Source: Proteobacteria bacterium 005FR1
GTDB lineage: Bacteria > Pseudomonadota > Gammaproteobacteria > Pseudomonadales > Cellvibrionaceae
Direction of reading: 5' to 3'
Assembly: GCA_026192395.1 (NCBI GenBank)
Contig: WACF01000001.1
Span: 2,230,309 to 2,294,308, forward strand
Length of the DNA: 64,000 nucleotides
Translations under genes and position numbers: made by a program
Notes under the pieces: generated by a model
What the model saw: only the letters and a program-made list of their open reading frames with translations
The model's database searches: none
What the model was told of the DNA's origin: nothing
In this document: piece by piece, positions 58,890 to 59,395 of the stretch
Layout of the letters: the number at the start of each line of letters is the position of its first letter
How positions within the stretch are numbered: position 1 is the first letter of the stretch

Positions 58890-59264
58890 CGACGGAATGC
58901 TGCGCATTTAGTGAACCAGAACGCTTCAAAGAACCAGCCCCAAAAAGGGCTTTTTAATGGTGGGCCTTGCTGGAGTTAATCAAAACGCCTTTTGGGCGTT
59001 TTGACCCTTCGGGCTTCGCCCTGAAATGCAGGGCTCGTTGCTAAATGCTGCGCATTTAGTGAACCAGGGCGCTTCGAAGAACTGGGAGATCCTTTCGACT
59101 GGTGGCTGCTGGGGAGAGGGCTGCCTTGCTGGAGTTAATCAAAACGCCTTTTGGGCGTTTTGACCCCTTCGGGGCTTCGGCAGCGAAAAACGCTGCCTCG
59201 TTGCTAAATGCTGTTCGCATTTAGTGAACCAGGGCGCTTCAAAGAACCAGCCCAGCAAGGCAGC
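58890..59264. repeat. Tandem repeats carrying pieces of the tRNA-Ile2 3' end
   Basis: Units with a spacing of about 150-165 bases follow the tRNA (reading on the minus strand). GCATTTAGTGAACCAG occurs at 58904, 59052 and 59217; GCTTC-AAGAAC follows each. CCTTGCTGGAGTTAATC followed by a CAAAACGCC/GGCGTTTTG hairpin occurs at 58965 and 59124. The unit at 58951-58974 copies the 3' end of the tRNA with the CCA and the next bases; the one at 59124 has only the CCAGCAAGG part. It recalls the tyrT repeats of E. coli, each ending in a piece of the tRNA. Confidence 0.75.
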
Positions 59265-59269
59265 ATATG

Positions 59270-59316
59270 AAAAAGCCCGAAGGGGAGGTGAAAAACACCT
59301 CCCCTTCGGGCTTTTT
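59270..59316 (-). terminator. Strong terminator of the tRNA-Ile2 gene
   Basis: A perfect 21-base stem with a five-base loop. The arms begin AAAAAGCCCGAAGG and end CCTTCGGGCTTTTT. It starts two to three bases after the tRNA CCA end. Confidence 0.9.
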
Positions 59317-59318
59317 AA

Positions 59319-59395
59319 TGGTGGGCCTTGCTGGACTTGAACCAGCGACCAATCGATTATGAGTCGACTGCTCTAACCAACTGAGCTAAAGGCCC
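59319..59395 (-). tRNA. tRNA-Ile2 (anticodon CAU, lysidine type)
   Basis: A 77-base tRNA with a GGGCCTT/AAGGCCC acceptor stem, discriminator A and encoded CCA. The anticodon loop is CTCATAA, so the anticodon is CAU. The T arm GGTCGCTGGTTCAAGTCC and the D arm match E. coli tRNA-Ile2, which is modified by TilS to read AUA, rather than elongator or initiator tRNA-Met. Isotype is judged by this likeness. Confidence 0.9.

Follow-up and report, generated by a model that had tools for sequence, protein, structure and literature searches.

The tyrT repeats have long been regarded as a curiosity of E. coli, and their RNA may affect the stringent response. These 178-bp repeats of tyrT/tyrV (RtT, RF00391, rttR) form tandem units directly 3′ of a tRNA gene, and the annotated E. 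coli rttR is a 171-nt RNA with its 3′ end at the CCA of the unit. The K-12 tyrV units read, in order, GGGGAAGGAT (the inverted tRNA end), GAGAAGCTTCGACC, AAGGTTCGA, hairpins including CCCGAAGGG, and then AATCCTTCCCCCACCACCA. Arrc20 and Arrc21 of A. pleuropneumoniae, RtT family members found near tRNA-Asn and tRNA-Lys genes and expressed by Northern blot and RNA-seq, are compared here by description and are described as lying upstream of those genes (PMC4986893). Similarity to rtT has also been recorded inside E. coli BIMEs (PMC2965389), and a REP within rttR (PMC12306157).

The stretch of DNA analysed here, 64,000 nt long and hereafter the window, holds an array of similar layout, in which units of much the same length follow directly on the 3′ side of a tRNA gene, one after another. 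Like the window units, those of tyrT/tyrV run from an inverted tRNA 3′ end through GGTTCGA and hairpins (one of them CCCGAAGGG) to a T-loop 3′ half and CCA. The window array differs in its hairpin sequences, in its tRNA, which is Ile2 and not Tyr, and in an intrinsic terminator ahead of the units; by eye, the E. coli tyrV sequence shown has no comparable terminator. Two other kinds of element invite comparison. REP/BIME palindromes, RAYT and IS200/IS605 elements are small hairpin repeats, as are the units, but REP/BIME are dispersed whereas the units are tied to tRNA T-loops. Islands targeted to tRNA genes by tyrosine or serine integrases, similar to the units, place a tRNA 3′-end copy directly after the intact gene, but the units are only about 180 bp, gene-less, and have their T-loop split by hairpins.

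Anatomy of the window array

The array comprises two full units and one partial unit, all on the minus strand, and extends down to position 58896. It starts at an intact tRNA gene, CCA included (59395–59319; Rfam RF00005, 74.9 bits), called Met-CAT by ARAGORN, which resembles E. coli tRNA-Ile2 and which we take to be tRNA-Ile2. Next come its intrinsic terminator, a long GC hairpin followed by a T run (59270–59315, part of inverted repeat I1), and an inverted copy of the tRNA 3′ end (59249–59268, inverted repeats I1 and I5), which lies between the terminator and unit 1 and has 42-nt arms that are 83% complementary. The first-pass annotation had described tandem repeats after a tRNA and its terminator; they are present in that order, although the tRNA lies on the minus strand and the units head to lower coordinates.

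In a full unit the 3′ end of the tRNA is copied, and a 70–100-nt cassette of four hairpins interrupts the T-loop of this copy between TTCRA and NYCC. Read 5′ to 3′ from the tRNA, the terminator and the inverted tRNA 3′ end are followed by GGTTCA, hairpin H1 (CTAAATGC/GCATTTAG), CAACGAG, a variable H2, GAAGCCCGAAGGG (H3), H4 (TCAAAACGCC/GGCGTTTTGA) and TTA, and then by the T-arm 3′ half, acceptor strand, CCA and trailer, all of the same tRNA. The tRNA pieces on either side of the cassette are thus the two T-loop halves, CTGGTTCA ahead and ACTCCAGC… behind. The repeats had been proposed to copy the tRNA 3′ end, and the copies do exist, but they are not merely end copies, as the cassette splits the T-loop copy.

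Unit 1 carries the T-loop 5′ half (GGTTCA), the cassette H1–H4 and the beginning of the T-loop 3′ half at 59131–59230 (77.6 bits to the covariance model R1, below), with H4 (TCAAAACGCC/GGCGTTTTGA) at 59139–59163 (repeats D3 and I3; covarying helix 5). Its tRNA 3′-end copy, of which ACTCCAGCAAGGC is retained (59123–59135; repeat D3), has a decayed acceptor end. The same parts of unit 2 span 58972–59065 (81.2 bits), with H4 at 58980–59004 (repeats D3 and I3), and its tRNA 3′-end copy with CCA and trailer, ACTCCAGCAAGGCCCACCATTAAAAAGCCC, lies at 58948–58976 (repeat D1, 97% to the tRNA copy); the tRNA piece here is ACTCCAGCAAGGCCCACCA, followed by the trailer TTAAAAAGCCC. Partial unit 3 (58896–58957; repeat D2) is the beginning of a unit only, with a trailer remnant, CTGGTTCTTTGAAGCG, GGTTCA and the first part of H1, and stops within that first hairpin. 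In unit 1, GCTGCCTTGCTGG of the inverted arm and CCAGCAAGGCAGC (59120–59132) of the tRNA copy within the unit each diverge from the tRNA, and their pairing is still perfect (I5; pairing 14 with self, 13 with the tRNA).

CTGGTTCACTAAATGC occurs in three exact copies at spacings of 148 and 165, the part that the first-pass annotation saw recurring in each unit, and a perfect 44-nt repeat, containing the CAAAACGCC/GGCGTTTTG hairpin and a tRNA 3′ piece, occurs twice at a spacing of 159, which bears out its description of two units with both features. The threefold 16-mer is not a product of chance, as three exact copies compare with 0.34 in shuffled sequence even when up to three mismatches are allowed. 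Folding of the 506-nt stretch gives z = −11. The neighbourhood is ordinary: the flanking ORFs encode a histidine kinase and a GGDEF/EAL protein, and no gene lies within the units. When named relatives were sought by way of the GGDEF/EAL protein, the matches were all distant.

A family tied to tRNA genes

With the window array as BLAST query, 27 of the 144 genomes in the host family gave related stretches, many of which lie immediately 3′ of tRNAs for Leu, Phe, Ser, Arg and Ile2/Met. The covariance model R1, made from 12 units, extends this to 81 of the 144 genomes and 20 of 32 genera in the family, and to 100 of 391 genomes and 41 of 143 genera in the order. Spread outside Gammaproteobacteria found no support in a phylum sample, where R1 gave only 4 positive genomes of 299, with one weak match outside the order.

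Linkage to tRNA genes was examined in 134 arrays holding 201 units. The first unit lies at most 125 nt 3′ of a same-strand tRNA gene in 96 of these arrays, representing 16 anticodons, and many of the arrays that have no adjacent tRNA follow a tRNA 3′ fragment or sit at a contig edge. Among 98 tRNA-adjacent first units, for which Phe is the most frequent tRNA, the distance from the tRNA is 20–107 nt (59–107 nt in 97 and 20 nt in one), and a terminator-like hairpin with a T run lies in between at 74 loci. The 3′ flank of the cassette follows its own tRNA, matching at 6.82 of 8 positions as compared with 5.36 (maximum 5.55) when permuted; for the T-stem 5′ half the agreement is weaker, 3.11 versus 2.71. 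An inverted tRNA 3′-end copy usually precedes the cassette. The idea that this arm pairs mainly with the unit's own tRNA copy was rejected, since that pairing is favoured in 13 loci, window unit 1 among them, and pairing with the real tRNA in 51.

The host genome has five R1 matches, and the four listed belong to the window array and to one second array, which lies about 6.5 kb from tRNA-Ser(gct) and is one of the arrays that have no adjacent tRNA. The segment of about 6 kb between that tRNA and its RtT-like array (L229, 2642–8448) encodes a serine recombinase (Resolvase/Recombinase/Zn-ribbon), a second resolvase-like ORF and an Rhs-like protein. Upstream of the second array there is also a long near-perfect inverted repeat, TGTGTGTACCTCAGGAGGTACAGC…CTCCTGAGGTACACACT (L182, 1640–1700).

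The relation to RtT holds in both directions. R1 scores the three K-12 units at 14.7–15.7 bits with the T-loop halves aligned, and finds 15 of 30 RF00391 loci. Rfam RtT matches the host second array over model positions 1–130 of 130 at 29.5 bits (E = 0.0019), below the 45-bit cut-off, as the sole RtT match in the 4.3-Mb genome, and L087 is likewise matched over its full length and in register. RF00391 itself gives matches in 62 of 274 gammaproteobacterial genomes, in 18 of them above the cut-off, and its match is preceded by a same-strand tRNA (Tyr, Gln or Ser) or, in L139, by a tmRNA in 26 of 30 fetched loci. At the gathering threshold, the level at which the window array was scanned, Rfam found only the tRNA and no RtT match. 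The window units do lie directly 3′ of a tRNA gene and end in the 3′ end of their own tRNA, as RtT units do; because they stay below the cut-off, they are better called relatives of RtT than formal members. Judged by part order and model matches, the window units probably belong to the RtT type, with the E. coli tyrT repeats inside the same large family. The likeness to tyrT that had been drawn from the window alone is therefore strongly supported and reaches farther than was claimed, as the K-12 units have the same part order and R1 and RtT find each other's members in register.

Beyond tRNA genes, one RtT match stands some 30 nt past the 3′ end of a tmRNA gene (L139, 1501–2027), and the linkage may thus extend to the tRNA-like end of tmRNA. 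The units at L107 (1116–1596) give a full-length match, below the cut-off, to Rfam AaHKsRNA22, an Aggregatibacter sRNA that may be a relative of the units. In the literature searched, mostly open-access journals, we found no description of the T-loop rule across the whole family.

T-loop junction, covariation and site occupancy

The split point TTCRA/NYCC is fixed independently of the 3′ arrays by tRNA copies that lie 5′ of an intact gene, where longer copies are split by the cassette in four loci and the arrays contain tRNA 5′ parts. At L178 and L109, units 5′ of tRNA-Cys hold almost all of the tRNA as far as GGTTCGA (or GGTTTGA), then the cassette, and then TTCCGACC or TTCCGACT, where the adjoining intact tRNA-Cys gene reads GGTTCGATTCCGACC. 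At L108 (Val) and L019 (Ile2), units stand on either side of the intact gene.

Base-pair covariation within the cassette is overwhelming. Across an alignment of 136 distinct rows, 23 of 26 pairs show changes on both sides, with 620 double-change cells as opposed to 150 in shuffled alignments, and 94.5% of cells are paired, a share that falls to 33–46% when the partners are slid. Some cassettes have extra hairpins nested in H1 or H2 (L014, 1760–2555; L066, 1765–1916; L187, 1264–1425), which look as if further small palindromes had been inserted into the cassette.

Occupancy varies between related genomes. Within one genus, tRNA-Phe loci are either filled or empty. At L194 and L197, 184 and 177 bp follow directly after the tRNA-Phe CCA and end in a tRNA 3′ copy, and beyond this segment comes the continuation that stands directly after the tRNA in L189, L192 and L195; the alignment would fit either a unit that entered an occupied site or an island that entered the unit's tRNA copy. 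The host genus is represented by one genome. In E. coli, units are present in 4,655 of 5,426 genomes, at 1–9 places (median 2), and 771 genomes have no match. Cassette similarity is 0.444 between different tRNAs of one genome, 0.455 for the same isotype in other genomes and 0.352 for the rest, a pattern that would fit descent combined with exchange inside genomes.

Integrase islands use the same tRNA genes as the units, but they are kilobases long, separate from the units, and displace the arrays; one such island, at L222, carries a tyrosine integrase gene. The repeated-integration scar proposed in the first-pass annotation thus holds in so far as the gain or loss of units among relatives appears to fall precisely at the 3′ end of the tRNA, and fails in that no integrase accompanies them; the integrases it would have searched for do occur at these tRNAs, within the separate islands. 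Copies of the tRNA-Phe 3′ part, 48–49 nt long and 11–38 kb from the tRNA gene, are present in five genomes (G098, G099, G102, G103 and G105), as expected for integrated islands. Far-apart unit pairs were considered as the ends of a larger element and rejected, as L068, L069 and L070 are separate tRNA-Arg arrays. By eye, no integrase was recognisable among ORFs of at least 150 aa in the intervening segment of L071 (tRNA-Phe), or among ORFs of at least 90 aa in that of L067.

Cassette, RNA or scar

Our preferred reading, to which we assign a probability of roughly 0.5, is a DNA-level, T-loop-specific, non-autonomous cassette that is tolerated beside an intact tRNA. Such an element would enter the T-loop of a tRNA gene or of a tRNA copy, would be kept as hairpins at the DNA level and would persist only where an intact tRNA remains alongside. 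Recombination between the repeated tRNA ends would then multiply it in tandem, and RNA made by readthrough, such as rtT in E. coli, would be incidental or would have been put to use later. Both the mobility of the cassette and its recombinase are what we infer, and the DNA-cassette reading is weakened because no recombinase accompanies the units and because the empty-site pairs also allow the reading that an island inserted in the unit's tRNA copy; vertical descent fits as well, because cassette similarity also tracks tRNA isotype. A Y1/HUH transposase of the REP/RAYT type was rejected as a partner. Y1 transposase (PF01797) is absent from the host genome and lacking in 13 of the 81 family members that bear units, and its occurrence in 115 of 144 relatives shows no clear association with the units. 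No unit in plasmids, phages or viral contigs was convincing, the 12 viral pattern matches reaching at most 19.6 bits and having no tRNA, and neither an integrase nor any other gene was found inside units.

The main rival to the DNA cassette, a possible but distinctly less probable one, is a set of functional small RNAs of the RtT kind, in which readthrough past the terminator and processing would yield CCA-ended structured RNAs acting in trans, for example as regulators or sponges. The end of annotated rttR at the unit's CCA fits this well, as do the Northern bands and RNA-seq signal of A. pleuropneumoniae RtT (PMC4986893), the strong covariation, and the closing-helix arms GCTGCCTTGCTGG/CCAGCAAGGCAGC of window unit 1, which both differ from the tRNA and still pair. 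It accords less well with the terminator-like hairpin and T run preceding the unit in 74 of 98 loci, with the strong terminator ahead of the window array, and with a unit number that varies among related genomes, many of which have no units. The wobble pairs speak against it too: G·U makes up 1.2% of cassette pairs, below the 5.4% of mismatches, as compared with 5.2% in neighbouring tRNA stems and 3.5% in terminators (predicted folds). Selection on RNA usually tolerates G·U, so its rarity suggests hairpins kept at the DNA level. This signal is not decisive, as shifts at some helix ends influence the G·U count and, with helix ends set aside, G·T (24) slightly exceeds A·C (11), so that selection on RNA may still be at work.

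Attachment-site scars or decoys, in which integrases that target tRNAs would leave tRNA 3′ copies that later serve as alternative attachment sites, are an unlikely account, although the same tRNA genes host integrase islands and the arrangement at L194 and L197, with the post-tRNA sequence of L189, L192 and L195 coming after the unit's tRNA 3′ copy, is what such scars could leave. That account gives no explanation for a covarying cassette inside the T-loop, nor do kilobase-long islands lying apart from the units, or the tRNA 5′ parts held by upstream arrays, sit well with it. Least probable is a meaningless tandem duplication of the tRNA tail, for which slippage during replication, or snap-back copying at the palindrome of the terminator, would be the cause. 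In its favour are the tandem arrangement of the repeats and the long palindromes that the terminator makes with the tRNA 3′ end and its inverted copy, but the same cassette structure recurs, with strong covariation, at about 20 tRNA anticodons in many genera.

The description of the feature is well supported, and the DNA cassette is the preferred mechanism at about one chance in two. A wider form of that reading, which we hold a little more tentatively, is that gene-less mobile cassettes form a family spanning the whole bacterial class, which enters the T-loop of tRNA genes at one exact position and survives only beside an intact tRNA, with the tyrT repeats as one branch and their RNA as a by-product. 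The tyrT repeats now take their place in a family that is found across Gammaproteobacteria at tRNA genes of about 20 anticodons and at a tmRNA gene. Its common rule is a hairpin cassette that splits a tRNA T-loop copy, and the old question of the nature of the rtT repeats becomes testable by comparison. Copies of tRNA 3′ ends beside tRNA genes need not be island scars, and the family hints at an element that makes use of the best-conserved stretch of tRNA genes and leaves the genes intact.
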